DNA of 64,000 bases from Dyella sp. AtDHG13 (GTDB lineage Bacteria > Pseudomonadota > Gammaproteobacteria > Xanthomonadales > Rhodanobacteraceae), in contig NZ_QICJ01000007.1 in NCBI RefSeq assembly GCF_003201105.1, forward strand, positions 62,001-126,000, read 5' to 3'. Position 1 is the stretch's first letter; the number at the start of each line of letters is the position of its first letter. This document shows, in pieces, positions 19,275 through 58,070 of this stretch. Under the pieces are notes generated by a model. That model searched no databases and had not been told where the DNA came from. It saw nothing but the letters and a program-made list of their open reading frames with translations. The translations under genes and the position numbers were made by a program.

Positions 19275-21158
19275 TCAGGATGCGTGGGTCGAATGGCCCA
19301 GGCCGGCCAGCAATTGTTCGACCACCTGCTCCGCGAGCTGCTCGGGTCGCAGCCCCGTGGTGCGCAGATGCAGTTCGGCGTTTTCGGGCACTTCGTAAGG
19401 CGAGTCGATGCCGGTGAAGTTGAGGATCTCGCCGGCACGGGCCTTGCGATAAAGGCCCTTGGGATCGCGGCGCTCGCACTCGTCCAGCGTGGTGTCGACG
19501 AACACCTCGAGGAATTCGTCCTCGTCGAACAGGCTGCGCGCGAACTGGCGCTCGCTCTGGAACGGCGAGATGACGCACACCAGCACGATCAGGCCGGCGT
19601 CGACCATCAGATGGGCGACCTCGGCGACGCGGCGGACGTTCTCCACGCGCGCCTCGGGTGTGAAGCCGAGATCCTTGTTCAGGCCATGGCGCAGGTTGTC
19701 GCCGTCGAGCATGTAGGTGTGGTAGCCCAGCGAATGCAGACGCCGCTCCACCAGATTGGCGATGGTCGACTTGCCCGCGCCGGACAGCCCGGTGAACCAC
19801 AGGCAGCGCGCCTGCTGACCCTTGCTGGCGCTGCGCACCTCCTTGTCCAGGTCGGTGTGCTGCCAGTGCACGTTGGCGGCGCGGCGCAAGGCGAAGTCCA
19901 GCATGCCGCAGCCGACGGTGGCGTGGGTGGTGCGGTCGATCAGGATGAAACCGCCCAGGGTGCGGTTGTCCTGGTACGACTCGAACGCGATGGCATGGTC
20001 CAGGTCGATGTTGCAGTAGCCGACCTCGTTGAGGTCCAGGCGGCGCGCCGCCAGCTCGGCCTGGGTGTTGACGTCCACCTTGTGCTTGATCGAGGTGATG
20101 CGCGCGTTGACCGTGCGCGAGCCGATCTTGAGCCAGTAGGCGCGATTGGGCAGCAGCGGCTCGTCGCCCATCCACAGCACGTGGGCGGCGAACTGGTCGG
20201 CCACCGGCGCCGGACGCGCCGCGTCGGCGATCACATCGCCGCGGCTGATGTCGACCTCGCGGTCCAGCGTCAGCGTGACCGCCTGGCCGGCAATGGCTTC
20301 CGGCCGGTCGCCATCGGCGGTCACGATGCGCTCGATGCGGGCGCGGCGCATGGCCGGCTCCACCACGATCTCCGCGCCCACCGCGAGCCGGCCGCCGCAC
20401 ACCGTGCCGGCGTAGCCGCGGAAGGAAGCGTCCGGACGGTTCACCCATTGCACCGGCATGCGGAAGGCTTCGGCCTGCGCGACCGTGGTGTCGGCCGACT
20501 CCAGCCATTCCAGCAGGGTCGGCCCCTGATACCAGGGCATGCGCGCGGAGCGCTGGCCAACATTGTCGCCGCCCGGCGCGATCACCGGCAGGCAGTGCAC
20601 CGAGGTGATGCCCAGCTGGACGGCCAGTTCGCGGTATTCGTGGGCAATGGCCGCATAGATGTCCTCGCGGCAATCCACCAGGTCCATCTTGTTCACCGCC
20701 AGCACCACCTGGCGAATGCCCATCAGGGCGCAGATGTAGCTATGCCGGCGCGTCTGCGGCAGCAGGCCCTTGCGTGCATCCACCAGCACCACCGCCAGCT
20801 GGGCGGTGGAGGCGCCGGTGGCCATGTTGCGGGTGTACTGCTCGTGGCCCGGGCAGTCCGCCACGATGAAGTTGCGCCGGGGCGTGTGGAAGTAGCGGTA
20901 GGCCACGTCGATGGTGATGCCCTGCTGGCGCTCCGCATCGAGGCCGTCGGTGAGCAGGGAGAAATCCAGCGCGTCGGGTGCATCCGCGTGCAGCTTGCGG
21001 CTGTCGCGGGCCAGCGCGGCGAGCTGGTCGTCCGGCACCATGCCGGCGTCGTAGAGCAGCCGGCCGAGCAGCGTGCTCTTGCCGTCGTCGACGCTGCCGC
21101 AGGTGATGAAGCGCAACAGGGCGGTGTCCGACGCGCTGGCGGGGTTGGTGGCGGCCAT
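19275..21158 (-). CDS. cysNC: Bifunctional ATP sulfurylase large subunit / APS kinase
   Basis: 627 aa. The N-terminal GTPase half (CysN) drives CysD to make adenosine phosphosulfate; the C-terminal half (CysC) phosphorylates APS to PAPS. Seen: GTPase P-loop G21-S-V-D-D-G-K-S28, [12 protein letters not shown] and NKMD; then [15 protein letters not shown] around residue 455 for APS kinase, with [15 protein letters not shown] after it. The fused form is common in Xanthomonadales and rhizobia. It overlaps cysD by one base (TGATG). PAPS made here would also feed the sulfotransferase-family protein at 49673-51007. Confidence 0.97.
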
Positions 21159-22060
21159 CAGAAATACCCCTCCTGCTTCTTACGCTCCATCGAGGCGTTG
21201 CCGTCGTTGTCGATCACCCGGCCCTGACGCTCCGAACTGCGGGAGGCGGCCATCTCGTCGATGATCTGGTCCAGCGTGTCGGCGGTGGACTCCACCGCGC
21301 CGGTCAGCGGATAGCAGCCCAGGGTGCGGAAACGCACGTTGCGCATTTCGATCTTTTCGTTTTCGCGCAGGGTGAAGCGGTCGTCGTCCACCATGATCAG
21401 CGCGCCGTCCCGCTCGACCACCGGACGGGGCTTGGCGAAGTACAGCGGCACCACCTCGATCCCTTCGCGGCGGATGTAGTGCCACACGTCCATCTCGGTC
21501 CAGTTGGACAACGGGAAGACGCGCACGCTTTCGCCCTTGTGGATCTGCGTGTTGTAGGTGTGCCACAGCTCCGGGCGCTGCTGCTTGGGGTCCCAGCGGT
21601 GCTGTGCGTTGCGGAAGGAGAACACGCGCTCCTTGGCGCGGGATTTCTCCTCGTCGCGGCGCGCGCCACCGATGGCGGCGTCGAAACGGTACTTGTCCAG
21701 CGCCTGCTTGAGCGCCACGGTCTTCATCACATCCGTGTGCACGGCCGAGCCGTGCGTGAGCGGGGAAATGCCCTGGCGCACGCCCTCCTCGTTGATGTGG
21801 ACCAACACCTCGACGTCACCCGCCGCCGCCACCTGATCGCGGAAGGCGATCATCTCGCGGAACTTCCAGGTGGTGTCCACGTGCAGCAACGGCATCGGCG
21901 GGCGGGCCGGATAGAACGCCTTGCGCAGCAGATGCAGCAGGACCGAGGAGTCCTTGCCGATGGAGTACAGCATCACGGGGCGCTCGAAAGCGGCCGCCGT
22001 TTCGCGAAAGATGTGGATGCTCTCGGCTTCGAGCGCGTCCAGATAGGACAGGGAAGTCAT
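21158..22060 (-). CDS. cysD: Sulfate adenylyltransferase subunit 2
   Basis: 300 aa from the ATG at 22060; an in-frame GTG at 22072 is an alternative. CysD carries the ATP pyrophosphatase-type active site that forms APS from ATP and sulfate. Seen: [17 protein letters not shown] (PP-loop), [26 protein letters not shown] and [11 protein letters not shown], all family hallmarks. It is translationally coupled to cysNC and is divergent from the Mla-type operon, with about 190 bp of shared upstream region. Confidence 0.97.
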
Positions 22061-22252
22061 GCGTGGCGTCACTGGTTCCTGGGCCCTCGACGGCTGTCGG
22101 GTGCACGGTCAATGGGTCAATTTAGCGGAAAACGGCGGGCCAGGCAGTGCCGGCGGCCTCAAGGCGTAGGAGAACGCTTCAGCTTTTCCCTCGCTGACCT
22201 CGGCATCATTTCGTCACCCGTCTTACGCGACACTCCACTAAGATCGCGCCCC

Positions 22253-39819: not shown

Positions 39820-39821
39820 GC

Positions 39822-41515: not shown

Positions 41516-41631
41516 CTTCAAGACCGGGGCGGCCCAGTACCGGAGCGGATCCACGGCCAGTCATCAGGCGGCAATAGTCGCGACGAGCGCGCCCCAAGGT
41601 AGCTGAAGCAACTTCCGGACACGGACCAGAA

Positions 41632-42939: not shown

Positions 42940-43055
42940 CCAGCGCTGGAATCCTATAGCCACAAGCGTTGCAATGATTCCCTCAATCGCAGCCTCATCC
43001 ACGCCCTGACAGACCAATCACTAACGACCAGCCAACCACTTAGCAGAGAAATGCC

Positions 43056-44357: not shown

Positions 44358-44358
44358 G

Positions 44359-44751
44359 ATGAACAGGCAGTTCGTGCTGTTCCTCTTCGCAGGCGGCGTC
44401 GCCGCCTGCGTCAATTTCTTCTCGCGCATGCTGCTTAGCCTCTGGCTAGTCTACGGCGCAGCCATCGTCGTTGCCTATGTGCTGGGCATGATTACCGCGT
44501 TCGCGCTCAACCGCGCATTGGTCTTTAGGCGTGTTAGTCATTCCATGCGGCATCAGGTGTTTTGGTTCACCGTGGTGAATCTAGCGGCGGTGCTACAGAC
44601 TCTTGCAATTAGCCTCCTGCTTGCCGAGTGGCTATTCCCGCGCATGGGGCTTACCTGGCATCCTGAAACGGTTGCCCACGCTTTTGGCGTTGCAGTACCC
44701 GTGGTGACCAGCTTCATTGGCCACAAGTACCTCTCATTCAAGAGCCACTGA
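44359..44751 (+). CDS. GtrA-family membrane protein (putative lipid-linked sugar flippase)
   Basis: 130 aa, four membrane helices. Seen: FLFAGGVAACVNFFSRMLL and the conserved FALNRALVFR in the middle, and FIGHKYLSFK at the end, all GtrA hallmarks. GtrA proteins are thought to flip polyprenyl-phosphate sugars across the inner membrane. Context: last gene of the cluster with the arabinose-donor genes, so it may flip polyprenyl-P-arabinose to the GT-C-like protein. Confidence 0.9.
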   Translation: MNRQFVLFLFAGGVAACVNFFSRMLLSLWLVYGAAIVVAYVLGMITAFALNRALVFRRVSHSMRHQVFWFTVVNLAAVLQTLAISLLLAEWLFPRMGLTWHPETVAHAFGVAVPVVTSFIGHKYLSFKSH

Positions 44752-44849
44752 TCCGGCCAACGTAGCGTGAAGCGATCGGGTAAGGCCTCCACCCACATTA
44801 TGCCGCCTCACGCGAATGCTCGTTGCTGCCGGCCTTGCATATCCCTTGA

Positions 44850-46946
44850 TTATGAGCCCCGAAGGGTACGGCGAACGTAAGGACGCCAGGCATGCCCAAT
44901 CGCCTCCTGGCCATAGTCGCCCTTCGCTGAAACGCTATCAGTTGGGGCAAGATTGCTAACGAACTCCGCGAACGGCGTCCAGATCAGTCGACGGCCGCTT
45001 GCTGACAGTCGGCGGCATAGCTCGGCCACGGCAGTGCTTTCTTCGCACTCGGCAGAGAGTCCGCCAGCAGCCTGGTAGCAAACTCTATCTATCATCAGTG
45101 AGTCAAAGGCCAACAGCGACACATTTTGGGTAAGCCAGAGCAGATTCAGCGGTCCAGCGGTCGCTGAAGGCATCCCAGCCCCGAAGCTCCATCCCTTGCC
45201 GCCATCGTCTTCCAGCATGATGGCTTGCCGAACGAAGCCGCACTGGTCGAAGACCTTGCCTCCTGCGGCATCGACGTTGGCCCGGGCCACGTGAGCCATC
45301 AGCTCTCCGAGGCTGCTGCTGCGCAATGGCGCGGTTCCGGCCCTGACAAACAGAAGTAGACTTCCATTGGCGATCGAGGCGGCTGCGTTGCATGCATCTG
45401 CGAAGCCATAGTGCCGCGAAATCCCCTCGGCCACGATGACCTCTCCTCCCGCGCTCGTCACCTCGCACACCATCAGTTGACCCGCTGAATCAGGGAAGAT
45501 GGCCCACGCATCCACGCTCGCTGCGTAGTGTTTCGCTTGCTCTATCACCTCGTAGGTTGCTTCCATTGAGTCGCCGGAGATTCTGGCATCCACGATAACG
45601 CTGACCGTCAGTCCGGAGGGAACCGCCCGCTTTATCCGAAATGACCCAGGAATCCAAGGTAAGCGACACACATGCGCACCATCCTCACCCAAGCGGGCCA
45701 GATGATCCTGAATAGCCCGTTCGGCTGCCAGCGACGCGTAGGGCTTGATCGTGACGTCGCCGGCGGTCGAGTTTTCCGATACTCGCCAGTGATACAGAAT
45801 CCGAGGAATGTGGCCAACCCGCTCCTGACCAACAGCATCAGAAACACGCAACGCTAGGTCCCAATCCTGACTACCTTCATAGCCCAGCCGGAAGCCGCCC
45901 AGATGGCAAATCACGTCGCGGCGATAAGCAGCGAGGTGGCCAATGAAATTCTGGCCCTCCAAGAGCTCGGGCGCGAAATCCGGCTTGAAGTAGGGGAAGT
46001 ACTTTCTTCCATCCGGCGCGATGCGGTCCTCGTCCGTGTAGATTAGTGCCAGATCCGGTTGCTCATAAGCCATGGCGGCGATGGCCTCCAACGCCTCGGG
46101 GTGCAGCATGTCGTCGTGATCGAGCAGGACGACGTACTCGCCCAGGGCCAGCGAAAGGGCAAGGTTGCTCGCAGCCGAAATGTGGCTGTTCTGCTTGCAT
46201 CTGGCAACCTTGATCCGCCCATCACGGAGCCCGTATTCACTTAAAACCTTCAGCGTCCCTTGAGCGACGGAAGCATCGTCGGCCACGCAGAGTTCCCATC
46301 GGCCATAGGTTTGCCGCAGCACGCTGTCGAAGCATGCCCTCAACAAATGCGGAGGCGTGTTGTACACGGGAATGATGATGGATAGCAAAGGCCCTTCTAC
46401 CGTCACGTCGCCGCCATCGCGTCGAGCCGCAGGACCAAATTGACTGGATTTGACCCGCTCGTCGCCAGGCTCCCATCCCTCATCCGTCGCCGGACCGCCG
46501 TACAGTATGTACAGCTGACCGGCCAACTGACGAACACCACCAAGTAAAAGGCTCCTCCGACTCCGCCACAGCAAAAGTGGCCCTGATCTGCGCAGAGCAC
46601 CTACAAGCAAGCTAAGGAGGGCGCGCAGGCGCCCCACGCGTTGAATCTTGAAGAAAAGCGGAGTCACGCCGTCTAGCCAAAGCCCGAGCCTTCTCGTTGG
46701 CCAGCGAAGAAGCACCAGCCCACGGATGGGCGCATTCGATGTTCTGCGCAAATGCCCCAACGGCATCCGAAGCTGCTCCCTGAAGCCGCCTTCCCCCAGG
46801 TCCGGATACAGCGCCGGTGAGCGACAATTGCACGCATCGCCGTCCAACTCGATGTCAATCCAGTACCAACCGGATGCCCACCCTCCATCTTCTTCGACGA
46901 CAAGACTGAAGGTTCGGAGAAATACATCTCCTTGCGCGGTGGTCAA
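44850..46946 (-). CDS. Glycosyltransferase family 2 protein with extra N-terminal domain
   Basis: 698 aa, TTG start with GGGAG 7 bp upstream; no better in-frame start precedes the GT domain. Seen: residues 1-180 form an unrecognised domain (FSLVVEEDGGWASGWYWIDIE; beta-rich start, then basic, LR-rich). Residues about 185-420 are a GT-A domain with SIIIPVYNTPPHLLRACFDS, the DXD-like LLDHDDMLHPEA and YEGSQDWDLALR. Residues about 450-690 look like a degenerate second GT-A domain. Last gene of the minus-strand O-antigen operon. Probably adds sugars to the growing chain in the cytosol. Confidence 0.87.
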   Translation of the reverse strand: MTTAQGDVFLRTFSLVVEEDGGWASGWYWIDIELDGDACNCRSPALYPDLGEGGFREQLRMPLGHLRRTSNAPIRGLVLLRWPTRRLGLWLDGVTPLFFKIQRVGRLRALLSLLVGALRRSGPLLLWRSRRSLLLGGVRQLAGQLYILYGGPATDEGWEPGDERVKSSQFGPAARRDGGDVTVEGPLLSIIIPVYNTPPHLLRACFDSVLRQTYGRWELCVADDASVAQGTLKVLSEYGLRDGRIKVARCKQNSHISAASNLALSLALGEYVVLLDHDDMLHPEALEAIAAMAYEQPDLALIYTDEDRIAPDGRKYFPYFKPDFAPELLEGQNFIGHLAAYRRDVICHLGGFRLGYEGSQDWDLALRVSDAVGQERVGHIPRILYHWRVSENSTAGDVTIKPYASLAAERAIQDHLARLGEDGAHVCRLPWIPGSFRIKRAVPSGLTVSVIVDARISGDSMEATYEVIEQAKHYAASVDAWAIFPDSAGQLMVCEVTSAGGEVIVAEGISRHYGFADACNAAASIANGSLLLFVRAGTAPLRSSSLGELMAHVARANVDAAGGKVFDQCGFVRQAIMLEDDGGKGWSFGAGMPSATAGPLNLLWLTQNVSLLAFDSLMIDRVCYQAAGGLSAECEESTAVAELCRRLSASGRRLIWTPFAEFVSNLAPTDSVSAKGDYGQEAIGHAWRPYVRRTLRGS

Positions 46947-47018
46947 AAGATTCTCCCTTTGTCCTCGCCTTCTTCAGACTTGGGCGCTCGCCTGAGGCAA
47001 GGCCGTCTAGGCACTCAA

Positions 47019-48221
47019 TTACTGGCCGATCGCCGTCAGCGTCGCGCAGGGCTTTGCGAGATGTCCAAACACGGTCTGTTCGATAAGCTCCAACTGATTG
47101 AACCAGCCATATCTTTCAATGGACCTGTCATGGGCGACCTGAGCCAGGCGCGGATAGTCATCAAGGCGCTGAATAAGGTTACGAATCGCATCCAACCAAC
47201 CGGAGCTTGACGAGATGAAGCCGTTTTCGCCGTTGACGATAGCGCTGGCGTAACTATGAATAGGCGTAGCTATCGTCAATGTCCCCACCGCCGCCGCCTC
47301 GAAGTACTTCAGCTCGGACTTGCAGTTCGTGAACCCGTTATCCAGAAGGGGAACGATATTGATCTCCACCAGTCCCATCAGCCGCTGTAGGTTGATGAAA
47401 TCGTGCAGCGGATAGAACTCGATTCGTTCTGCAAACGCCTCAAGTCCCCCCTTCATTTCAAGGAAGCCGACGACCAGCAACCTCACCCTGCTATCTTCCC
47501 TCATGATCGTCGCCAAGGCCTTCGCCACCATTGCAAAGTCATGGTTATGCGTAGGCGTCCCACTGAAGTAACCAATGTGGATATAGCCATTACGCTTGAA
47601 ACCACCTTGCACCTTCTCCCGATAAATCGGGTCAGAAATGGCTAGCTGCTCCTTGTTCAGGAAGTTGGGAATCACGCTGGCGGGAAGACCCGAATACTCG
47701 TTGAGACGAGCAGCGAGATAGGAGTTGGTTCCTATCGCGGCATCGCACATCCGTAGCGTTGCGCCCATACGACCAATCCAACCAAACCAGTGATCCCAGG
47801 TTTCGTTGGCTTCGATGCTCTGATCAAGCGTGCGTAAAATCAGATGCGCATAATCCGTATTGAACACTAGGTCGTCGACATCGAATATCACACGCTTACC
47901 CTGCAACTTTGCGCGGGTAATCATTTGGTTGACGTGCTGATTGTACTTGGTCCGGCAGATAACAATGACATCGGCCGCATCCACCACGCGGTTGAGATGC
48001 TCACGGTCGTCCAGACCGAAGAAACCCGCCCCGATGTCGGAGCCAAGCTCTCGCAAAACCTGGATCATATTGTAAACACGATAGCGAAATGTGCTCGTAT
48101 CGGGTCGCTCGTAGAAGTACGCGACACGACGCGCGCCATCGCAAAGTTCCCGGAACCGTGTCTCAAAAGGGATATTCCAAGGGTCTTGGTAAGCGTGAAC
48201 GGGCTGGTTGACCAGGAACAT
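47019..48221 (-). CDS. GT-B (GT4-like) glycosyltransferase
   Basis: 400 aa from the ATG at 48221, which lies 5 bp after the previous stop and has GAGGTAA before it. Seen: RYRVYNMIQVLRELG near the N-terminus, VIFDVDDLVFN, and a C-terminal nucleotide-sugar half with PLLDNGFTNCKSELKYFEAAAVGT, which is the E-x7-E-like donor region. A/T-richer than core genes. Acts in O-antigen assembly by context. Confidence 0.87.
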   Translation of the reverse strand: MFLVNQPVHAYQDPWNIPFETRFRELCDGARRVAYFYERPDTSTFRYRVYNMIQVLRELGSDIGAGFFGLDDREHLNRVVDAADVIVICRTKYNQHVNQMITRAKLQGKRVIFDVDDLVFNTDYAHLILRTLDQSIEANETWDHWFGWIGRMGATLRMCDAAIGTNSYLAARLNEYSGLPASVIPNFLNKEQLAISDPIYREKVQGGFKRNGYIHIGYFSGTPTHNHDFAMVAKALATIMREDSRVRLLVVGFLEMKGGLEAFAERIEFYPLHDFINLQRLMGLVEINIVPLLDNGFTNCKSELKYFEAAAVGTLTIATPIHSYASAIVNGENGFISSSSGWLDAIRNLIQRLDDYPRLAQVAHDRSIERYGWFNQLELIEQTVFGHLAKPCATLTAIGQ

Positions 48222-48226
48222 CGAAA

Positions 48227-49552
48227 TTACCTCAACTGCTCGACGATTGCCGCCAAACTTGTTTCCCACGACGTCGAGAGATGATGGTGCTTGCCGCTGG
48301 GCCTACCCGTCTTCTGCTCGGCTTCTGCCCGAACAATCATCGCGCGCAACCCTTCCTTGAGCGACTTGGCGTCCGGTTGGACGCAGATAATACGACTGGA
48401 ATAGTTCTGCAGATCGCGCTTGACGCCGAATTGATTGGTCACCACCAATGCACCCGTAACGGCCAAATCCAGTGGTGGATAGCTGGGGTGTGGCGTAGCC
48501 ATGAGACAGAGCCCCAGATCGATGCTTGCTATGAATGCGCTGTAATCACGCCACTCCATCGTTGGGAGAACGATAGGCTCCAACACGCCACCAAGCCTCA
48601 GCTTGGGCACGTCCTTGCCCACGAAATACACATCCCACGATTTAGGGTCAAGAATACCTTCAGCTACGACCTCGTCGAGAACCTCGATGCCACGATAGAA
48701 AAGGTTTCGCAAGTTGTTCGGCCTTGCGTAAAAGAAAAACTTCAACCTCTGCTCATTGCCTGGGTTGGGCGCCCTTAATATCTGGTTCGGGAAAGCCGGC
48801 TCAAACCACATCGCATGGCTGGCCATATGCTCCAGGCCCGTGGATGTAAAATGACGAAGCAACATTTCCGTATTGATGATGAATCGAATGTCCTCTCGCA
48901 TCAGGACTTCCTGGCAACGCAACCAGTCATCGCCATGCGGGTAGAACATCCGCTCGTCTTCTTGCAGAAGATAGTCGATGCGTGAAGGAGGAATACTTCC
49001 CAGGACGCAAGCCGTCGTCCACCAGGAGGTAGTCAGGAATCGATCCCCTTCGCAAACATCCAATTGCGCACGCTCGTCGGAAACGCCTACCTGCACGAAC
49101 TCGACGTCATCGACGTATTTGATGCCATTGCACTCCAGCACATGCGCAAAACCCGAGGCATCAGGCGCCTCTGTGCGGGTCACGACGCGCAGCTTGGCTC
49201 CCGTCCTCTTTGCCAATAACACTGAGAGAATGATGGCGGTTGCAACGCCACCAAAAAGCGACCCCGAATTGATACTGTCTGTAACGAGATTGATGCGCGC
49301 GCTGGGTCCTGGGGCTGAATACACCGGCAGCGGCTGAATGGGCGCATAGGAACGCTTGATCAACGCACGCACATCCAGCGTATCCGCTGCGATCGCCCGC
49401 AAGTCAGCCGCCGACGGAGTCATGCCAGCCGACCGCTGTTCCTGCCCCAACATGTGGTGCAAAGCTGATTCACGTCCTTTGACGATTCGTCGGACCAGCC
49501 CCCTGACACCCTTGTTTTGCCAGTACCAGGTAATCTTCTCAATGAGATTCAC
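48227..49552 (-). CDS. WsaF-like glycosyltransferase (rhamnosyltransferase candidate)
   Basis: 441 aa, GTG start with TGGAG 8 bp upstream. Seen: INLVTDSINSGSLFGGVATA, the N-terminal motif of the WsaF family (beta-1,2-rhamnosyltransferase in Geobacillus S-layer glycan), and the C-terminal ATPHPSYPPLDLAVTGALVVT donor-site motif. dTDP-L-rhamnose is provided by rfbBACD about 6 kb away, consistent with the assignment. Specificity is inferred. Confidence 0.85.
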   Translation of the reverse strand: MNLIEKITWYWQNKGVRGLVRRIVKGRESALHHMLGQEQRSAGMTPSAADLRAIAADTLDVRALIKRSYAPIQPLPVYSAPGPSARINLVTDSINSGSLFGGVATAIILSVLLAKRTGAKLRVVTRTEAPDASGFAHVLECNGIKYVDDVEFVQVGVSDERAQLDVCEGDRFLTTSWWTTACVLGSIPPSRIDYLLQEDERMFYPHGDDWLRCQEVLMREDIRFIINTEMLLRHFTSTGLEHMASHAMWFEPAFPNQILRAPNPGNEQRLKFFFYARPNNLRNLFYRGIEVLDEVVAEGILDPKSWDVYFVGKDVPKLRLGGVLEPIVLPTMEWRDYSAFIASIDLGLCLMATPHPSYPPLDLAVTGALVVTNQFGVKRDLQNYSSRIICVQPDAKSLKEGLRAMIVRAEAEQKTGRPSGKHHHLSTSWETSLAAIVEQLR

Positions 49553-49672
49553 TCATTTACTCCATAAACGTCGCGTGACCTTAACGACTGCCACTAACTA
49601 ATAAGTGCTGTCCGATGACACACTTACGATCCGCCCTCAACGATCGGTCCAGATCGGTAAAACGAAATCCGC

Positions 49673-51007
49673 TCACGGGCGTCGTGGCGTGAATGCCTTC
49701 CTGACGAGCCAGCGTCGACTGCGCACCTGCATCCGTAGCTCTTCTAGCTCGTTTTGCAATCGCTGTGTCAAAAGCTCTCCCCCGTGGATCCGATCTAAGG
49801 CGTCCTTCAGCTTGGCGTGTGCATCTTCGCGCTGAACTTGGGCCTCTTCCAACCGAGCCTGAGCCTCTTCCAGACGGATTTGGCGCTCTTTCGCCACAGC
49901 CCGAGCTTCGGCACGCCCCTCTACTAGGGAAAGGTGTTCGGATTCCAACCTAAGTAGTTGCTCCGTAATCACGGCCATTCGCCCTTCCAGTTGGGCGTAA
50001 TGCTGGACTTTATCAAAATACTGGGCTTCCAAATGTCTCACTGTTTCCTTCATCTGGTGTTCGAGCTGATGGATACGTTCAATTCGCTCCTGTGACAGCC
50101 GTGCGAGCTCATCCCGGGCAGCCTCGGCGTCGCCCAGGTTGGCGATAATCTGCTCCAGCGGGCGCTCAAAGAGTTCAGACGCCCCGACAAAGCGTGTATC
50201 CCAATCCTCAAGGGGACGCCAATTCCCGCTAGCCATGGCATCGCTGCACAACTGAAACAGCTCTTTCAGCAGTAACGGGATTTCCTGGCGGCGCAAAGAG
50301 CCCGGCACCAGACTATGATGTCGGTCTTCAGGACTGAGAAAACCGTCGATCGCAGCAGCTTCATTGGCGATGCTCTCCTCCCAGTCCAGGCCAAGCTGCC
50401 TGCCGACCCTGGACAGATTCGAACGCCAGTCGGTCAACAGATCACCGTAGGTGAGCATTGATCGGGGAACACCATGCGTTGCCCTGATGGACTCCGATAA
50501 ATGCCTTGCCCACATCAGGTAAGAGTGTCCGTGGGACCAGCCATCACGAACTGCCAAAGAATCCGCGACTTCGAGTGGATCCCTGACCATCAGAAGCGCC
50601 GTCGCACGAATGTCAAGCCGCTGGAGTGCGGCAAGCCACAGCGGCATCAAACGACACATACGAGGATCCTTTACAGACCACAGTCGCTTACCATCAAAGT
50701 CTCGTTTGATAAGCGCACAGATCTCGTCCACCGCGAACAATGCGGCCGGCGAGTGCTGCCAGCCGTCAGGAAGCTCGCGCATGTCATGCCAAGTTCGTCC
50801 GAGTGACTCCAGTAGACGATCATGGATTTCGACTGCGTCACTGTGCTCCCAGAATCCCTTCTTGTTATCGTTTTGTGGCGAAAGTAGCCGATCCCCCAAT
50901 TCGGCACCCAGCAGGCTCAAAACCCTTGTTGCCGCTGAGGTACCGCTGCGATGCATGCCAAGCACCAACACCGCCGTGTCTTGGCCCTTAGAGGCAGACT
51001 CAGTCAT
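49673..51007 (-). CDS. Sulfotransferase-family domain fused to a long coiled coil
   Basis: 444 aa from the ATG at 51007, preceded by GGGAGAA and overlapping wzt by 8 bp. Seen: a P-loop-like PAPS 5'-phosphosulfate motif LGMHRSGTS (16-24), KDPR (113-116) and the 3'-phosphate motif RDPLEVADS (142-150). About residues 292-430 form an unbroken heptad-rich coiled coil (ERIHQLEHQMKETVRHLEA; LEEAQARLEEAQVQRED), and the end is basic and amphipathic (RSRRWLVRKAF). Known: WbdD of E. coli O9a has a capping enzyme plus coiled coil that measures O-antigen length next to wzt. Inferred: this is a chain-terminating ruler that caps with sulfate, or another PAPS-fold transferase. Confidence 0.85.
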   Translation of the reverse strand: MTESASKGQDTAVLVLGMHRSGTSAATRVLSLLGAELGDRLLSPQNDNKKGFWEHSDAVEIHDRLLESLGRTWHDMRELPDGWQHSPAALFAVDEICALIKRDFDGKRLWSVKDPRMCRLMPLWLAALQRLDIRATALLMVRDPLEVADSLAVRDGWSHGHSYLMWARHLSESIRATHGVPRSMLTYGDLLTDWRSNLSRVGRQLGLDWEESIANEAAAIDGFLSPEDRHHSLVPGSLRRQEIPLLLKELFQLCSDAMASGNWRPLEDWDTRFVGASELFERPLEQIIANLGDAEAARDELARLSQERIERIHQLEHQMKETVRHLEAQYFDKVQHYAQLEGRMAVITEQLLRLESEHLSLVEGRAEARAVAKERQIRLEEAQARLEEAQVQREDAHAKLKDALDRIHGGELLTQRLQNELEELRMQVRSRRWLVRKAFTPRRP

Positions 51008-52385
51008 GAACTTCTCCCTCCAGGGTGAGTTGCGACTGCACGCCAAAATCCACATACCCAGTTGCCAGGCGACCGGGATCTGGCAGGACTCGGAACAACA
51101 CGGCATCGATGACTCGGTCCAGGAAGGTCTCCTCCTCTCCCACGCGACCACGAATACCGGCATTCATAAAGTAAGTGCCTGGTGCCAGCAGGCATCGGAA
51201 CCGGAACCTTACCGTGACGGAAGTGCCGGCCTGCACGAAATCAATTGCATCTAGAGGCTGGGAAGTCACTGCGCCGCCAAGCTCCAGCCCCGACACGGAT
51301 TTGATCAACATGCCAAAACGCACTGCGGCCGAAAGCTTGTCAAACTCCGCGCTATACACGAATACATACTCTGCACCGGATCGCACGACATTGACACGCT
51401 GGCCACCGGGCGTTTCCAGATGCGGGTCTACTACCCTACCGCCCCGGGACTCAAAGCGAAGCTCGCTCTGCGAACGCAGGCCTGGATCAAAATAGGCGTC
51501 GGGAATGTCTTCGCCAGGCATATCTTCTGGACGCTGGACAGCTATATTGGCGGCATCTGAGCGAACGTTCCCGGCGCGAGTGCCTGATTGCTCGAGCAGT
51601 TCCCTTCGATATTTGTCGCGGATGCCCTTCGCCACGGAATCCGGCGCGTAAAGCAACTTCTGGTAGTGAGACACCACACGCTTTGGCGTACCGATGGCCA
51701 ATAGCTCGCCTCTATCCAGCAGGATAGCGCGATTGCACAACTCCAACACGGTACCCGCCGAATGCGAAACAAAAAGCACGGTGGCGCCATCGTTGCGAAT
51801 GCGCTCGATTCGAGCAAAACACTTCCGCTGGAAAGCCTCGTCACCGACGGAAAGTGCTTCGTCAACGATGAGAATGTCTGGCGTCACGTTGATCGCCACG
51901 GCAAACGCCAGACGAATGTACATGCCACTTGAATAGCTCTTGACGGGCTGATCAATGAAGTCACCGATGTCCGCGAAAGCCACTATTTCATCGAACCGCG
52001 CTTCTATCTCCATCCTTGTGAGGCCAAGCAAAGTCCCGTTGAGAAAGACATTTTCCCGGCCGGTGAACTCAGGATTGAAGCCGGCGCCCAGCTCGAGCAA
52101 AGCCGCGATACGGCCATTTATTTCCACGTTGCCGAGCGTAGGCGCAAGCGTGCCGCAGATCAGCTGGAGCAGCGTGGATTTACCGGATCCATTGCGGCCA
52201 ACGATACCGACGGTCTCACCTCTATGCACTTCGAAATCAATGTTCGATAGTGCATGGAACTCTCGATACCAACGACGTTTGGCATCGCCTGCGGCAAACA
52301 TCTGCATGAGGCGATGATGAGGCTTGTCGTACACCGGGAACGACTTGCACAAGCCCGAAACTCGGATCGACACGTCAGAGGACAT
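51000..52385 (-). CDS. wzt: O-antigen ABC exporter ATPase with C-terminal carbohydrate-binding domain
   Basis: 461 aa; ATG at 52385 has GAGGA upstream (a TTG at 52391 is also in frame). Seen: ATPase with Walker A G63-R-N-G-S-G-K-S70, signature YSSGM and Walker B ILIVDEALSVGDEAF; then a linker and a C-terminal beta-sandwich (about 300-461) with SGAEYVFVYSAEF and GTYFMNAGIRG. The extended C-terminus is the Wzt type that recognises the capped non-reducing end of the polymer before export. This supports an end-capping enzyme nearby (see the sulfotransferase-family gene). Confidence 0.95.
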   Translation of the reverse strand: MSSDVSIRVSGLCKSFPVYDKPHHRLMQMFAAGDAKRRWYREFHALSNIDFEVHRGETVGIVGRNGSGKSTLLQLICGTLAPTLGNVEINGRIAALLELGAGFNPEFTGRENVFLNGTLLGLTRMEIEARFDEIVAFADIGDFIDQPVKSYSSGMYIRLAFAVAINVTPDILIVDEALSVGDEAFQRKCFARIERIRNDGATVLFVSHSAGTVLELCNRAILLDRGELLAIGTPKRVVSHYQKLLYAPDSVAKGIRDKYRRELLEQSGTRAGNVRSDAANIAVQRPEDMPGEDIPDAYFDPGLRSQSELRFESRGGRVVDPHLETPGGQRVNVVRSGAEYVFVYSAEFDKLSAAVRFGMLIKSVSGLELGGAVTSQPLDAIDFVQAGTSVTVRFRFRCLLAPGTYFMNAGIRGRVGEEETFLDRVIDAVLFRVLPDPGRLATGYVDFGVQSQLTLEGEVHD

Positions 52386-53187
52386 CGGCAAATCCTCGAC
52401 GAGCCGTCATGAAAACCACATAGCCCAGATACGTAAACATGAGCGCACCAAGAGCATAGAGCCCGAGACCCGCCCAGTTCGGAAAATGTCCCCAGAGTGC
52501 CACTTCACGCGACTGGTCGATGATGAAGCTCAGCGGGTTAAATTCAAACAACCAACGCACCTCCGGACTGACTGAGGAGATTGGCATGATGGCCGTGGAG
52601 GTAAACAGCAATGCAGTCACCAGAACGCCAGTGACCTGCCCGATATCGCGGAAATACACCCCCAGCGCAGACAGCCACCAAGATACGCCCAACGTCAGAA
52701 TCACCAGCGGCGCAACTGTGAGCGGGAAAAGCACGACCTGCCAGACAAACTGGCGTTCAAGCACTAACTCCAGAACAAAAAAAGCCAACAGATTCGTCAG
52801 TAAATGAAAAAGAGCGGACAGCACCATCGGCCACGGCAGTATTTCCAGAGGAAAAATCACCCTCTTCACGTAGCTCGGGTTGCTGACCACCAGCGCTGGC
52901 GAACGGCCTATGCATTCAGCCAAGAAGCCGTGAATGATCAGACCGATAAATAGAATAAGGGCGAAGTTGTGCACCCCCTCCGCCGGCTGGGGCCACCGGC
53001 TCTTCAGGATACTGCCAAACGCCAGCGTGTACACCGCCAGCATGAGGAAAGGACTGATCAGCGCCCACAACAAACCAAAGTTCGCCCCTCGATATCGCCC
53101 GTGAATTTCACGGCGCGTCAACTCGAGGATCAGCGATCTATGCCGAATGGCCACATGAAAGGGCCCAGTGAATTTAGAACCAGCCAT
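52375..53187 (-). CDS. wzm: O-antigen ABC exporter permease
   Basis: 270 aa, about six membrane helices. Seen: LTRREIHGRYRGANFGLLWAL in parts near the N-terminus, the Wzm/ABC-2 signature, and VRWLFEFNPLSFIIDQSREV. It exports undecaprenyl-diphosphate-linked O-polysaccharide across the inner membrane together with Wzt, with which it overlaps. First gene of the minus-strand O-antigen operon; metB lies 59 bp upstream on the same strand. Confidence 0.95.
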   Translation of the reverse strand: MAGSKFTGPFHVAIRHRSLILELTRREIHGRYRGANFGLLWALISPFLMLAVYTLAFGSILKSRWPQPAEGVHNFALILFIGLIIHGFLAECIGRSPALVVSNPSYVKRVIFPLEILPWPMVLSALFHLLTNLLAFFVLELVLERQFVWQVVLFPLTVAPLVILTLGVSWWLSALGVYFRDIGQVTGVLVTALLFTSTAIMPISSVSPEVRWLFEFNPLSFIIDQSREVALWGHFPNWAGLGLYALGALMFTYLGYVVFMTARRGFADVL

Positions 53188-53246
53188 TCTGGTGGTTGCC
53201 TTCGTTAATCTGCGGATGACTGCGAAGTAGATAGGAGGCAGCGACT

Positions 53247-54416
53247 TCAGCGCAACGCGTCATCGAGTTCGTTTCGCAAATCGGCAATGTCTTCCACGCC
53301 AACCGAAAGGCGAATCAGGCTATCGCTGATGCCCAGGCGCTTGCGATTGGCCGGAGGAATGGAGGCGTGCGTCATAATGGCCGGGTGTTCGATTAGGCTT
53401 TCCACGCCGCCAAGCGACTCGGCAAGCGCGAACAGGTGACAACGCTCCAGGACGTTGCGCGCCTTTTTCTGACCGCCCTTGACTTCCACGCTGATGATGC
53501 CGCCAAAACCGTCCATCTGCTTCTTGGCCAGCGCATGCTGGGGATGGCTCTTCAAGCCTGGATAGATGACCCTGTCGATCGCAGGGTGCTTTTCCAACCA
53601 ACGAGCCAGGTCCAGCGCACTGGCACAGTGCTGACGCATGCGCAGGTGCAGTGTTTTTAGGCCACGCATGGCCAGGAAGGCATCAAACGGGCCAGATACG
53701 GCACCCACCGAGTTCTGAAGGAACCCCATCTGTTCCACCAACTCGTTGTCGCTGCCAGCGACCACAATGCCGCCGACCATGTCGGAGTGACCATTCAAAT
53801 ATTTGGTTGCCGAATGCAGCACCAGATGCGCGCCAAATTCCAGCGGACGCTGCAGCATTGGCGAGCAAAAGGTGTTGTCCACGACAAGGATCAGGCCATG
53901 CTTGTGGGCAAACTCGCCGAGCCTCGCCAAATCCACTAGCTTGAGCATGGGATTGGTCGGGGTTTCCGCCCAAATCATGCGGGTATTGGGCTTCAGTGCA
54001 GCCTTGAGTGCCTTGGTGTCATTGAGATCGATGAACGTGAAGTCCAGGCCTGCCGAACGGCGGCGCACGCGCTCGAACAAACGATAGCTGCCCCCATATA
54101 GGTCATCCATCGCAATAACGTGACTTCCGCTGTCCAGCAGGTCCAGCACGGTAGCTGCAGCGGCCAAGCCGGAGCCGAACGCGTAACCAGCCTTACCACC
54201 CTCCAGGTCAGCCACGCACCGCTCATAGGCCATGCGCGTGGGATTCTGGGTGCGTGAGTATTCGTAGCCTTTGTGAACGCCGGGGCTACTCTGGACATAG
54301 GTGGACGTGGCGTAGATCGGCGTCATGATCGCGCCGGTGAAGGGGTCTGGGTGCTGCCCCGCGTGGATGGCTCGCGTACCGAGCCCAAGTACTGTTTTTT
54401 TCTTGTTCGTCGCCAT
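53247..54416 (-). CDS. metB: Cystathionine gamma-synthase / gamma-lyase
   Basis: 389 aa from the ATG at 54416 (MATNKKK); earlier in-frame starts add a non-homologous tail. PLP enzyme of the trans-sulfuration family. Seen: PLP lysine K205 in HSATKYLNGHSD, YSRTQNPTRMAYE and the C-terminal ESLGGVESLIEHPA. Sequence alone does not separate synthase from lyase; the neighbouring cystathionine beta-synthase (61.5 kb) would fit reverse trans-sulfuration. In Xanthomonas the gene bordering the LPS locus opposite etfA is called metB. Divergent from rfbB, about 230 bp apart. Confidence 0.93.
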   Translation of the reverse strand: MATNKKKTVLGLGTRAIHAGQHPDPFTGAIMTPIYATSTYVQSSPGVHKGYEYSRTQNPTRMAYERCVADLEGGKAGYAFGSGLAAAATVLDLLDSGSHVIAMDDLYGGSYRLFERVRRRSAGLDFTFIDLNDTKALKAALKPNTRMIWAETPTNPMLKLVDLARLGEFAHKHGLILVVDNTFCSPMLQRPLEFGAHLVLHSATKYLNGHSDMVGGIVVAGSDNELVEQMGFLQNSVGAVSGPFDAFLAMRGLKTLHLRMRQHCASALDLARWLEKHPAIDRVIYPGLKSHPQHALAKKQMDGFGGIISVEVKGGQKKARNVLERCHLFALAESLGGVESLIEHPAIMTHASIPPANRKRLGISDSLIRLSVGVEDIADLRNELDDALR

Positions 54417-54650
54417 GATCACCACGTCAGAAAGCCGGGCCATAAGCCCGATCCATGATTTACCCAAGGATACCGGTAACCGACCTATTTTAGCCGGGAA
54501 ATGCCCTCCCCGCCGGCACCAGATGAACAGGCCCGTAACTGACTCGTATAAACCGGTGTCTCAAAAGGCATTCGGCCGGGTTTGCTTGAGTTTTCTGGCT
54601 TCCCAAAGCGTGACAGAATGGCGAAACATTATTTTCGCCAGTCAGGACTT

Positions 54651-55700
54651 ATGACGACACTGCTAGTTACCGGCGGAGCCGGCTTCATTGGTGCCAATTT
54701 CGTGCTTCAGGCCATTGCCCAGGGTCACAGGGTAGTGAACCTGGACAAGCTCACGTATGCGGGCAACCTGGACACTTTGGCGTCGCTGGAGGGAAACGAG
54801 CGCCACATCTTTGTGCAGGGCGATATTGGCGACCGCGAGCTGGTTTCCAGTCTCCTGAAGACCCACAAGGTGGACGCAGTCGTCAATTTCGCCGCTGAAT
54901 CGCACGTCGACCGCTCGATCGACGGCCCTGCTGCGTTCGTCGAAACTAACGTTGTGGGCACACTGGGGCTGCTGGAAAGCAGCCGAGACTACTGGCGTGG
55001 GCTGGATGCTTCGGCAGGCAGCGCCTTCCGCTTCTTGCACGTATCCACCGATGAGGTCTATGGCTCGCTTGGCCCGGATGGCAGTTTCAAGGAAACCACG
55101 GCCTACGCGCCCAATTCCCCGTATTCGGCCTCCAAGGCCGCGTCGGACCATCTAGTTCGTGCGTTCCATCACACTTACGGCCTGCCCACGCTGACCACCA
55201 ATTGCTCGAACAACTACGGCCCCTATCAGTTCCCTGAAAAACTGATCCCGCTGATCATTCAGAAGGCCTTGGCCGGCGAGGCTCTGCCGGTTTATGGCGA
55301 CGGCCTGAACATCCGCGACTGGCTGTACGTTGGCGATCACTGCACTGCAATTCAGCGCGTCCTTGAGGCCGGTCGCGTCGGCGAAACTTACAACGTGGGT
55401 GGCAACGCTGAGCGCGAAAACCTGACCGTCGTGAGGACCATTTGCGCCCTGCTGGACGAGCGCCATCCGCTGGCGGATGGTCGACGCCGCGAGTCGCTCA
55501 TCACGTTCGTCAAGGACCGCCCCGGTCACGACCGCCGCTACGCCATTGACTCCTCCAAGCTGCAGAACGAGCTCGGCTGGCGCCCCTCGCAAACATTCGA
55601 AACTGGCATCACCCGCACGGTCGATTGGTACCTGCAGAACAAGGCATGGGTTTCCCGCGTACTTGACGGCAGCTATCGCATGGAGCGGCTCGGCGCATGA
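54651..55700 (+). CDS. rfbB: dTDP-glucose 4,6-dehydratase
   Basis: 349 aa from the ATG at 54651, which begins at the NAD-binding motif [13 protein letters not shown]. Second step of dTDP-L-rhamnose synthesis. Seen: STDEVYG with the catalytic Asp-Glu pair and [15 protein letters not shown] with Tyr-x-x-x-Lys. First gene of a tightly packed rfbB-rfbA-rfbC-rfbD operon with 4-bp overlaps. Confidence 0.97.
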
Positions 55701-56584
55701 GCAATCAAAAGGGCATCATCCTTGCCGGCGGCTCTGGCACGCGGCTGTATCCCATCACGCAGGCGGTGAGCAAACAGCTTCTGCCCGTGTATGACAAGCC
55801 CATGATCTACTACCCGCTTGCCACGCTTATGCTGGCGGGTATCCGCGACGTCCTGGTCATCAATACCCCGCATGAACAGGCGCTGTTCCAGCGCCTACTG
55901 GGTGATGGCAGCCAGTGGGGCATCAATATCACGTATGCGGTGCAACCTTCGCCGGATGGTCTCGCGCAAGCCTTCATCATTGGCCGCGAGTTTGTCGGGA
56001 ACAACCCGAGTTGCCTTGTGCTGGGCGACAACATCTTCTATGGCGTAGGCCTTACTGAGCGCATGAAGCGCGCCTCAATGCGCGAGCGCGGCGCTACGGT
56101 GTTCGGTTACTGGGTCAAGGATCCGGAGCGCTACGGCGTGGCCGAATTCGACGTTGCAGGCAAGGTCGTCGGTCTTGAGGAAAAACCGACCGAGCCGAAG
56201 TCCAACTATGCGGTGACCGGCCTGTATTTCTATGATCATCGCGCACCCGATTTCGCGGCCGAACTGAAGCCTTCGCCACGCGGTGAGCTGGAAATCACGG
56301 ATCTCAATCGTTGCTACCTCGACGACGAATCGCTGCATCTCGAGCAACTCGGTCGCGGCTATGCGTGGCTGGACACCGGCACCCACGAATCGCTAATGGA
56401 AGCAGGCGAGTACATCCAGACCATCGAAAATCGCCAGGGCTTGAAGGTCTGCTGTCCCGAAGAGATCGCCTACGTCAACAAATGGATTGACGCCGAGCAA
56501 CTGCTTCGCCTCGCCGCTCCGCTATCCAAGACGGGCTACGGCCAGTACCTCCAGAATCTGATCAAACAAGGCTACGTTGGATGA
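55697..56584 (+). CDS. rfbA: Glucose-1-phosphate thymidylyltransferase
   Basis: 295 aa. Makes dTDP-glucose from dTTP and glucose-1-phosphate. Seen: nucleotide-binding [27 protein letters not shown] with metal-binding Asp, [13 protein letters not shown] and [13 protein letters not shown]. Length matches RmlA. Overlaps rfbB by 4 bp (ATGA). Confidence 0.97.
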
Positions 56585-57138
56585 AGTTCATCGAAACCTC
56601 CCTGCCCGGCTGTGTCGTCATCGAACCGCAGGTGTTCGGCGATTCGCGCGGTTTTTTCTACGAGAGTTACAACGAAGCCAAGTATCGCGAGGCGGGCATC
56701 GATCGGAAGTTCGTGCAATCGAACGTCTCGCGTTCGGCGCGTGGCGTGTTGCGCGGGCTGCATTACCAATGGCCGCATCCGCAAGGAAAACTGGTCAGCG
56801 TGCTGGAGGGCGAGGTCTATGACGTGGCCGTGGACATCCGCCGCGGCTCGCCGACGTTCGGCCAGTGGACGGGCGTGATGCTCACCGCTGAGAACCATCG
56901 CCACTTCTGGATACCGGAGGGTTTTGCGCACGGTTTTTGCGTGGTTTCAGAATTCGCGACGTTCTCTTACCAGTGCACCGATCTCTACCATGCCCCGGCG
57001 GATGGTGGCATCCGTTGGAACGACCCGGCCATCGGCATTGACTGGCCGATCAGCAACCCGCTGTTGTCGGACAAGGACAGCAAGGCCCCCCTGCTTGCCG
57101 ATGTGACGCCGGAGCGTCTACCGGAGTATCGCGTTTGA
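56581..57138 (+). CDS. rfbC: dTDP-4-dehydrorhamnose 3,5-epimerase
   Basis: 185 aa. Seen: cupin fold with [12 protein letters not shown] (catalytic His), [18 protein letters not shown] and [12 protein letters not shown], all RmlC signatures. Overlaps rfbA by 4 bp, and its stop overlaps the TTG start of rfbD. Confidence 0.97.
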
Positions 57139-58070
57139 AGATCCTGCTGTTAGGTGCCAATGGCCAGCTTGGGCAGACCTTCCTGAAGGAAGGCTCCCTC
57201 GCCACGCTTGGAGACGTCGTGCCGGCCACCCGCGACGGATCGGTCGCCGGCGGCACACCTGGCGTCGCGGGCGACCTGTCTTCGCCCGAGGGACTGGTCG
57301 CCCTCCTCGATCAAGTCCAGCCGGACGTGATCGTCAATGCGGCCGCCTATACGGCCGTGGACCGCGCAGAGCAGGAAGAGGCGCTTGCCACGCGGATCAA
57401 TGGCGCCGCCGTGGGAGCCATTGGGCAATGGGCGGCCGCCCATGGCGCCTTGGTACTACATTACTCCACGGATTATGTCTTTGATGGCCAGAGCGCGCAG
57501 GCCTACGCCGTCGACGCCGCCACGGCGCCTCTGGGGGCTTACGGCCGCAGCAAGCTGGCCGGCGAGCAGGCGCTGGCAGCGAGCGGTGCGCACCACATGA
57601 CCTTCCGCACCGCATGGGTCTACGCGGCGCATGGGCAGAATTTCATGCGCACCATGCTCAGGCTTGGGGCGGAGAGAGATGAGCTGCGCGTCGTCGCCGA
57701 CCAGCACGGGGCGCCGACCTCCACGCTTCTCATCGTGCGCGGCTCGCTCGCGGCGCTACGGGCGTGGATCAAGGCATCGGCCGATGAACGCGGCGCATTG
57801 GAAGGCACCTATCACCTCGTGGCCAGCGGCTCCACCACGTGGCATGGGTTTGCCACGGCGATCTTCGAAGAAGCTTTCCATCGCGGCTTGATCGCAAAGA
57901 AGCCCACGGTTGCCGCGATCGGCACCGCGGATTTCCCGACACCGGCAAAGCGGCCGGCTTATTCCGTGCTCGACAGCTCGTCTTTTGAAAAGCGGTTCGC
58001 GTTTGCCTTGCCCGATTGGCAACAAGGCCTGCACGAAGTGATGGCCGAACTATCTACCCAGGCTCGCTGA
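57135..58070 (+). CDS. rfbD: dTDP-4-dehydrorhamnose reductase
   Basis: 311 aa with a TTG start at 57135 that shares bases with the rfbC stop; no other start precedes the NADPH motif LLGANGQLGQTF. Final step giving dTDP-L-rhamnose. Seen: YSTDYVFDG, the catalytic Y-x-x-x-K in YGRSKLAGEQ, and FRTAWVYAAHGQNFM. The TTG start may lower its expression relative to rfbC. Confidence 0.96.
   Translation: MKILLLGANGQLGQTFLKEGSLATLGDVVPATRDGSVAGGTPGVAGDLSSPEGLVALLDQVQPDVIVNAAAYTAVDRAEQEEALATRINGAAVGAIGQWAAAHGALVLHYSTDYVFDGQSAQAYAVDAATAPLGAYGRSKLAGEQALAASGAHHMTFRTAWVYAAHGQNFMRTMLRLGAERDELRVVADQHGAPTSTLLIVRGSLAALRAWIKASADERGALEGTYHLVASGSTTWHGFATAIFEEAFHRGLIAKKPTVAAIGTADFPTPAKRPAYSVLDSSSFEKRFAFALPDWQQGLHEVMAELSTQAR

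Follow-up and report, generated by a model that had tools for sequence, protein, structure and literature searches.

A sulfotransferase-type head on a coiled coil behind wzt: a candidate O-antigen chain terminator and length ruler in Dyella sp. AtDHG13

Introduction

The scheme of a chain terminator, a coiled coil and a Wzt protein is already well known with methyl, methyl-phosphate and Kdo as caps (PMC9445017, PMC11231755). In a stretch of 64,000 nucleotides from Dyella sp. AtDHG13 (contig NZ_QICJ01000007.1, positions 62,001 to 126,000), in the following called the window, a gene next to wzt encodes a sulfotransferase-like head followed by a long helix, and we were interested whether this protein could end and measure an O-antigen in the same manner, with another cap. 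A sequence-only reading of the window had proposed exactly this, with sulfate as the candidate cap. Here, we followed up the proposal by family scans, structure prediction and a comparison with related clusters.

Results

The gene and its cluster

The features of the locus are collected in Table 1. The sulfotransferase gene overlaps the stop of wzt by 8 nt (51000-51007), its ribosome-binding site GGAGGGAGAAG falls within the last codons of wzt, and the Wzt encoded there carries a Wzt_C domain (Pfam, E 6e-27), which confirmed the claimed position directly downstream of, and overlapping, a Wzt with a cap-recognition domain. The same domain matches PDB 2r5o, which we take to be the Wzt of Escherichia coli O9a with its methyl-phosphate cap. 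Pfam scans of the 14 ORFs at 37058-54467 detected no methyltransferase or kinase family, in agreement with the earlier statement that the cluster has neither; ORF 41632-42939 gave no Pfam match of any kind. At 44500-54600, no promoter or terminator signals beyond chance were found. The genes cysD and cysNC, cited before as a source of PAPS, are indeed present in the window but carry little weight as evidence, as they lie approximately 28 kb from the sulfotransferase gene and are also ordinary sulfate-assimilation genes. The cluster has etfBA-like genes, named by inspection, on one side and a cystathionine gamma-synthase-like gene on the other, and this interval is presumably the variable LPS locus of xanthomonads. 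A search of viral contigs yielded no relative.

Table 1. Features of the locus (window positions; residues refer to the respective protein)
Feature	Position	Strand	Basis or remark
cysNC and cysD, PAPS supply	19275..22072	-	general sulfate assimilation genes
Glycosyltransferase family 2	44850..46946	-	Pfam
Glycosyltransferase group 1	47019..48269	-	Pfam
WsaF-type (rhamnosyl) glycosyltransferase	48227..49552	-	Pfam; downstream of sulfotransferase gene
Gene for sulfotransferase head and coiled coil	49673..51007	-	444 aa; start ATG at 51007, stop at 49673; proposed chain terminator/ruler
Basic tail, residues 424-444	49676..49738	-	charge count
Continuous helix with heptad pattern, residues 281-438	49694..50167	-	AlphaFold2, heptad shuffle test
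Sulfotransferase-fold head, approximately residues 1-260	50228..51007	-	Pfam, AlphaFold2, fold matches
3'-phosphate-type motif R142...S150 (spacing 8)	50558..50584	-	profile and alignment
KDPR, residues 113-116	50660..50671	-	motif and alignment
E54, candidate catalytic base	50846..50848	-	conserved in 75/76; putative role
P-loop GMHRSGTS, residues 17-24	50936..50959	-	motif and alignment
Wzt, ABC ATPase with C-terminal Wzt_C cap-binding domain	51000..52391	-	Pfam Wzt_C
Ribosome-binding site GGAGGGAGAAG	51011..51021	-	3 nt upstream of sulfotransferase ATG
Wzt cap-binding domain, approximately residues 297-450	51042..51503	-	Pfam, match to 2r5o
Wzt Arg426, place of methyl-cap lid Trp362 of Aquifex	51114..51116	-	alignment
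Wzt Asn410, Aquifex Thr346	51162..51164	-	alignment
Wzt Met361, Aquifex Ile299	51309..51311	-	alignment
Wzm permease	52375..53187	-	family scans; upstream of wzt
dTDP-rhamnose genes rmlBACD	54582..58070	+	named by inspecting translations, not by family search

The sulfotransferase head

Since the head reaches only E 7e-5 and 23.6 bits against Pfam Sulfotransfer_3 (PF13469), under the gathering cut-off of 27 bits, assignment of the fold rests on structure. AlphaFold2, with a 76-sequence alignment as input, led to a model of the 444-aa protein with a mean pLDDT of 91, and its top 13 Foldseek matches in the PDB were all sulfotransferases (best E 1e-6), tyrosylprotein sulfotransferases with PAP among them, followed by a PFKFB kinase as the 14th match; TM-scores were low (0.28-0.34 by query, long helix included). 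A profile built from 15 heads matched tyrosylprotein and aryl sulfotransferases of the PDB with E 1e-5 to 5e-5. We take the P-loop GMHRSGTS to form the 5'-phosphosulfate side of the cofactor site and R142/S150 to be its 3'-phosphate-type pair. In an alignment of 76 rows, which included 75 of the 80 named loci described below, R142, S150, P115 and R116 are each found in 76/76 and K113 and E54 each in 75/76, while invariance of the P-loop is uninformative there because it was a selection criterion of the collection scan. By model and alignment, the head is thus predicted to fold as a PAPS-type sulfotransferase whose cofactor site is intact. This bears out the PAPS-binding-like head of the sequence-only reading, which had named a lack of conservation of the PAPS-site residues beforehand as a refuting outcome; the counts above came out in its favour. 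Solved PAPS sulfotransferases (PDB 4gox, 4gbm and 3ap3) share the fold, the P-loop and the R...S pair, but act on other acceptors and come without a coiled coil or a glycan cluster.

A terminator with other chemistry may be considered at this point, in which PAPS or a similar nucleotide would be bound by the fold, yet the chain end would receive a group other than sulfate or a second enzyme would alter the group afterwards. The score below the Pfam cut-off, the P-loop fold that PFKFB kinases share at similar Foldseek scores, and a methyltransferase gene between Wzt and sulfotransferase in one distant locus (L143, see below) would fit such a protein. It is nevertheless quite improbable in view of the conserved R...S pair and other active-site residues, of 13 top fold matches that are sulfotransferases, and of L143, where a Sulfotransfer_3 protein from another subfamily accompanies a Wzt with the same pocket signature.

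The coiled coil and its basic end

In the AlphaFold2 model the rod is a single helix of 158 residues (281-438), and its heptad contrast of 0.407 compares with 0.249 +/- 0.033 for 1000 shuffles of the same residues, none of which was as high. A helix/coiled-coil proxy was dropped as proof of a coiled coil; because it flags 57% of shuffled tails, the coiled coil was judged from the helix and the heptad shuffle. The coiled coil of the earlier reading therefore stands, but its length of about 140 residues was too short. Similarly, the C-terminus described as a basic amphipathic end is clearly basic (net +7 over the final 18 residues) and weakly amphipathic, with a modest hydrophobic moment of 0.32-0.41; the AlphaFold2 confidence at this end is <70. 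In many relatives the coiled coil is terminated by S-x-S-W-R, which also closes the coiled coil in several methyltransferase-headed and DUF4915-headed proteins, and RSRRWLVRK of the 444-aa protein may be a weak form of this motif.

The architecture is similar to that of the trimeric WbdD (Escherichia coli O9a/Klebsiella O3), where a long coiled coil likewise carries the catalytic head at its distal end, the partner is a Wzt with a Wzt_C cap-binding domain, and the protein holds no glycosyltransferase. The head differs, being a PAPS-type sulfotransferase instead of a methyltransferase plus kinase, and the cap would be sulfate instead of methyl-phosphate. Pfam and NCBIfam scans detected no methyltransferase or kinase domain in the 444-aa protein, and Pfam gave no match to a GT99 beta-Kdo transferase head.

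The gene slot behind wzt in relatives

A Wzt_C search over 148 related genomes gave a match in 115, and 89 matches with E <=5e-18 were used for a survey of the gene behind wzt, excluding weaker matches and an identical second copy in G008; labels were obtained by Pfam on cluster representatives and the remainder assigned by BLAST clusters. The sulfotransferase family directly follows Wzt in 18/89 and is the second or third gene in another 2 (G090, G005). Five methyltransferase clusters account for 40/89 (14 + 9 + 7 + 6 + 4; in 2 rows of the 7-row cluster the methyltransferase is the second gene, and the label MT24 relies on the second gene in 2 rows). The other labels are WbdD-type (4), DUF4915 (3), GT99 (1), Sulfotransfer_2-like (1) and partial methyltransferase (1), and 19 rows were given none. 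Two WbdD-type proteins served as positive controls and matched the PDB WbdD at E 5e-50 (G095) and 1e-45 (G007), as did the GT99 protein of G008, with a match to PDB 5fa0, which we take to be WbbB, at E 2e-45. WbdD-type, GT99 and methyltransferase heads all occur in the slot among Dyella relatives, and since G007 and G008 belong to the same genus as the window, one genus has a WbdD-like, GT99, methyltransferase or sulfotransferase gene after wzt. Known-terminator types thus fill the slot in relatives that the sulfotransferase gene fills in the window, a class criterion that is our own.

Long fusions of 1053-1709 aa make up 9 of the 18 slot-adjacent sulfotransferase proteins, and in eight of the nine glycosyltransferase domains were detected behind residue 400, that is, behind the coiled coil; the fusion of L027 gave no domain match behind residue 400 at E 1e-5, and that of L022 has an additional methyltransferase domain near its C-terminal end. 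In L132, the middle part (306 aa) of the methyltransferase-12 protein matched no Pfam family. The order of head, coiled coil and glycosyltransferase in the eight fusions is that of WbbB (Klebsiella O12, a GT99 Kdo terminator fused to glycosyltransferases) and of ORF6 (Klebsiella O7) (PMC11231755), which differ from the window in the chemistry of the head, and from whose arrangement the window also departs by having its glycosyltransferases as separate genes. A further parallel is the S-layer glycan cluster of Geobacillus stearothermophilus with WsaE, WsaF and Wzm-Wzt: here too wzm/wzt overlap the next gene, which has a capping head, and a WsaF-type rhamnosyltransferase is also present, but WsaE has a methyltransferase making a 2-O-methyl cap, whereas the window has a sulfotransferase there, without a fused glycosyltransferase (PMC2943079).

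Another case counts against a sulfate cap. In the wbsalmo cluster of Aeromonas salmonicida, ORF19 encodes a sulfotransferase domain and lies between wzt and wbbB, so that it directly follows wzt as in the window, but with 216 aa it is half as long as the window protein, and WbbB comes next; no sulfate was known to the authors from this O-antigen, and they left ORF19 unexplained (PMC4483657).

The Wzt cap domain follows the head

In a tree of the cap domains, all 20 sulfotransferase-linked Wzts fall into one clade (SH-aLRT 99) together with the Wzt of G109, which has a cap domain near that of the window yet a DUF4915 head. The sulfotransferase label changes once on this tree vs twice on the ATPase-domain tree, and nine head classes (66/89 rows) require 10 vs 12 changes; as the ATPase-domain tree groups the heads nearly as well, joint inheritance explains much of the grouping. 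When Wzt pairs were compared at similar ATPase identity, without the 21 rows that were unassigned or belonged to two one-row classes, cap-domain identity for same-head vs different-head pairs was 44.4% vs 26.0% at 55-60% ATPase identity (n=30, 239), 45.4% vs 35.6% at 60-65% (n=57, 57) and 53.2% vs 46.6% at 65-75% (n=181, 35), with no head effect at 45-50% (20.9 vs 20.6%) and 50-55% (21.9 vs 21.6%). The sulfotransferase family was detected in 20/21 relatives with a cap domain >=41% identical to that of the window vs 24/127 others (Fisher 1e-11, kinship ignored), where absences may be misses because in most genomes scoring was limited to 16 candidates. One class-level genome (G212) with a cap domain in that range has another next gene, and its sulfotransferase is found on another contig. 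Head classes showed no clear contrast in the net charge or pI of their cap domains.

The pocket itself could be compared with the Wzt of Aquifex, where Leu300, Thr346, Ala348 and Trp362 form the pocket for a 3-O-methyl cap, Ile299 and Asn313 touch the sugar, Val380 is contributed by the partner, and the exchange W362L nearly abolishes binding (PMC9445017). In addition to the three positions listed in Table 1, Val380 aligns with Thr444 of the window Wzt. The combination Met361/Asn410/Arg426 (M/N/R) is present in 20/20 sulfotransferase-linked Wzts vs 0/69 others, and the DUF4915 exception inside the clade, G109, has Cys/Asn/Arg at these positions. Tyr342, Tyr344, Tyr346, Arg358 and Arg441 are near-fixed only in Wzts of the sulfotransferase class. 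The lid column is Trp in 34/34 rows of four methyltransferase classes and Arg in 4/4 WbdD-type, 6/6 methyltransferase-12 (the fifth methyltransferase class) and 3/3 DUF4915 rows, as it is in PDB 2r5o. An Arg lid in the GT99 row, seen with MAFFT, was not counted as support; HMMER aligns that stretch differently. As the Arg lid requires just two changes on the tree, it is largely a clade property, and the Arg lids of the sulfotransferase and WbdD classes are not independent of each other.

These counts bear on a reading by shared history, in which wzm and wzt are co-inherited with the next gene as a cassette and neither adjacency nor pocket co-variation reflects recognition of a sulfate cap. Such hitch-hiking would be consistent with ATPase domains that also group by head (2 changes), with the two changes of the lid and with the lack of a head effect on cap-domain identity in the two lowest bins of ATPase identity. 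We consider it highly improbable, since the cap domain does follow the head at 55-60% ATPase identity, the class-specific residues coincide with experimentally mapped pocket positions, and M/N/R is kept near sulfotransferases at much lower cap-domain identity and across phyla, as described in the next section.

Related heads beyond the close relatives

Of 574 named loci that encode related heads, the 80 best were analysed. A cap domain like that of the window was found in 14 of these 80, in 13 upstream of the sulfotransferase gene, which in 11 of the 13 lies <=134 nt from the end of the cap-domain match. All 13 upstream Wzts among the best 80 have M/N/R; in L120 the Wzt is downstream of the sulfotransferase gene and without the signature. 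The M/N/R loci, whose organisms overlap partly with the 148 relatives, range from Rhodanobacteraceae over the betaproteobacterium Sulfuricella, an alphaproteobacterial MAG and Desulfatibacillum to the Gram-positive Paenibacillus sedimenti. Cap domains just 24-45% identical to that of the window retain M/N/R near sulfotransferases in several phyla. At the lower end stands L143 (24% identity), whose Wzt has M/N/R and where a helix-tailed protein matches Sulfotransfer_3 at E 2e-23 and is missed by the profile of the window family at E 1e-3. By its sequence, this sulfotransferase belongs to another Sulfotransfer_3 subfamily; the gene order is Wzt, methyltransferase, sulfotransferase. The helix is short in L050 and absent in L113, both behind an M/N/R-type Wzt, and L142 and L145 have sulfotransferase genes near a Wzt without the signature. 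The gene next to the M/N/R Wzt of L141 was not counted as a sulfotransferase despite this Wzt, as it showed the motif only and was negative with the family profile and Pfam.

In 66 of the best 80 named loci, no cap domain like that of the window was detected in the DNA around the locus (some contigs being short), and 14/25 searched genomes from loci of this kind had no Wzt_C match. The proteins of these loci often show the same head with a long helix-like stretch, and because this is common in loci without Wzt_C, the head-plus-helix architecture serves other systems too. Such proteins, often >=1000 aa, in many loci without a Wzt_C transporter point to the main rival of a terminator, a tethered decorating enzyme: the head would sulfate internal or side-chain sugars during growth, the coiled coil would do no more than dock it on the polymerase or membrane, and length and export would be governed otherwise. 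Sulfate is reported from other bacterial polysaccharides. The subset linked to Wzt_C, however, occupies the gene slot of known terminators, Pfam scans of the window cluster yielded no other terminator family, and the Wzt cap pocket changes along with the sulfotransferase head, which together make a decorator unlikely for the window protein.

Discussion

From the predicted fold with its conserved cofactor residues, the heptad-patterned helix, the slot shared with known terminators and the co-variation of the Wzt pocket, the 444-aa protein is probably a WbdD-like terminator and ruler of the O-antigen, whose sulfate cap would then be recognised by Wzt. The comparison with relatives (slot, fusions and pocket co-variation) supports this idea of a sulfate-capping ruler. 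In the proposed mechanism, an O-polysaccharide, lipid-linked and probably with rhamnose, would grow at the non-reducing end through the action of cytoplasmic glycosyltransferases, with the coiled coil keeping the sulfotransferase head distant from the polymerase, so that only chains of sufficient length could reach the head. The head would move sulfate from PAPS onto the terminal sugar and growth would stop. Subsequently, the Wzt cap-binding domain would bind the sulfated end via the pocket with Met361, Asn410 and Arg426, and export by Wzm-Wzt would be limited to sulfate-capped chains.

A wider claim reaches beyond this locus: that sulfate is a further chain-ending passport for export besides methyl, methyl-phosphate and Kdo, that it is read by Wzt through an M/N/R pocket code in which Arg replaces the Trp of methyl caps, that the combination of head, coiled coil and Wzt is found again in several phyla, with a Gram-positive among the organisms, and that an independent association with this pocket type arose in at least one more sulfotransferase subfamily. 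We regard this as a close call that leans slightly towards yes. No report of a sulfotransferase as chain terminator was found in the literature searched, the coverage of which leaves out preprints and most subscription journals, and no paper in it names both 'sulfotransferase' and 'WbdD'. Sulfate caps may have been missed, because acid work-up can strip sulfate esters and terminal groups are easily overlooked. The latter is described for polysaccharide spectra (PMC11127046).

If true, the finding would add a new cap chemistry to the scheme of terminator, ruler and export. The heads would then be modules that can be exchanged on a shared rod, the transporter pocket would change in step, and Trp vs Arg at the cap lid would be a residue-level rule that may allow neutral and charged caps to be predicted from sequence.

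Candidate cap enzymes and related export loci

Methyltransferase-12-headed proteins with a long stretch ahead of the coiled coil were encoded at six of the compared loci (L132, L133, L135, L138, L184 and L189), and the Wzt lid, the Arg426 position where Aquifex Wzt carries Trp362 over the methyl cap, was Arg in all of them. The stretch from L132, the only one scanned, gave no Pfam match. These proteins resemble Klebsiella O7 ORF6, which has an unannotated kinase, and by analogy methyl-phosphate caps are predicted for these loci. A DUF4915 head lay immediately behind Wzt in three of the 89 cases read (L131, L136 and L193), again with Arg at the lid in each, and is a possible further cap enzyme; the L131 protein has a long helix-like tail. 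An S-x-S-W-R element at the coiled-coil end (L022, L025, L028, L131, L150 and L157) was common to unrelated sulfotransferase, methyltransferase and DUF4915 heads, and is perhaps a shared docking module for membrane or polymerase.

Features and their locations
Feature	Location	Strand
UbiA-type prenyltransferase, DprE1-like, DprE2-like and GtrA-like genes, 435-aa protein	window 37058-44751	+
435-aa protein of this group	window 41632-42939	+
DUF4915-headed gene	L131:6615-8267	-
Clustered Wzt_C-type Wzts	L150, L154, L155, L165, L166, L192, L205	

Wider glycan systems

Within the window, the UbiA-type group looks, by analogy, like a three-component system adding a pentofuranose, perhaps arabinofuranose, to the polymer outside the cytoplasm, and resembles the system described in PMC11127046; a Pfam scan of the 435-aa protein found no match. 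Some relatives (G012, G017 and G105) encode three Wzt_C-type Wzts no more than about 20 kb apart, suggesting paired glycan export systems. Sixteen Sulfotransfer_3 matches, many in frames of 500-730 aa, were found in one 2.9-Mb genome (G109). Sulfotransferase-plus-helix proteins without a nearby Wzt_C-type Wzt occurred at L066, L074, L079, L110 and others of the best 80 of 574 loci with a related head, and searches of several such genomes for Wzt_C gave zero matches; there the architecture may serve another, putative surface-glycan system.
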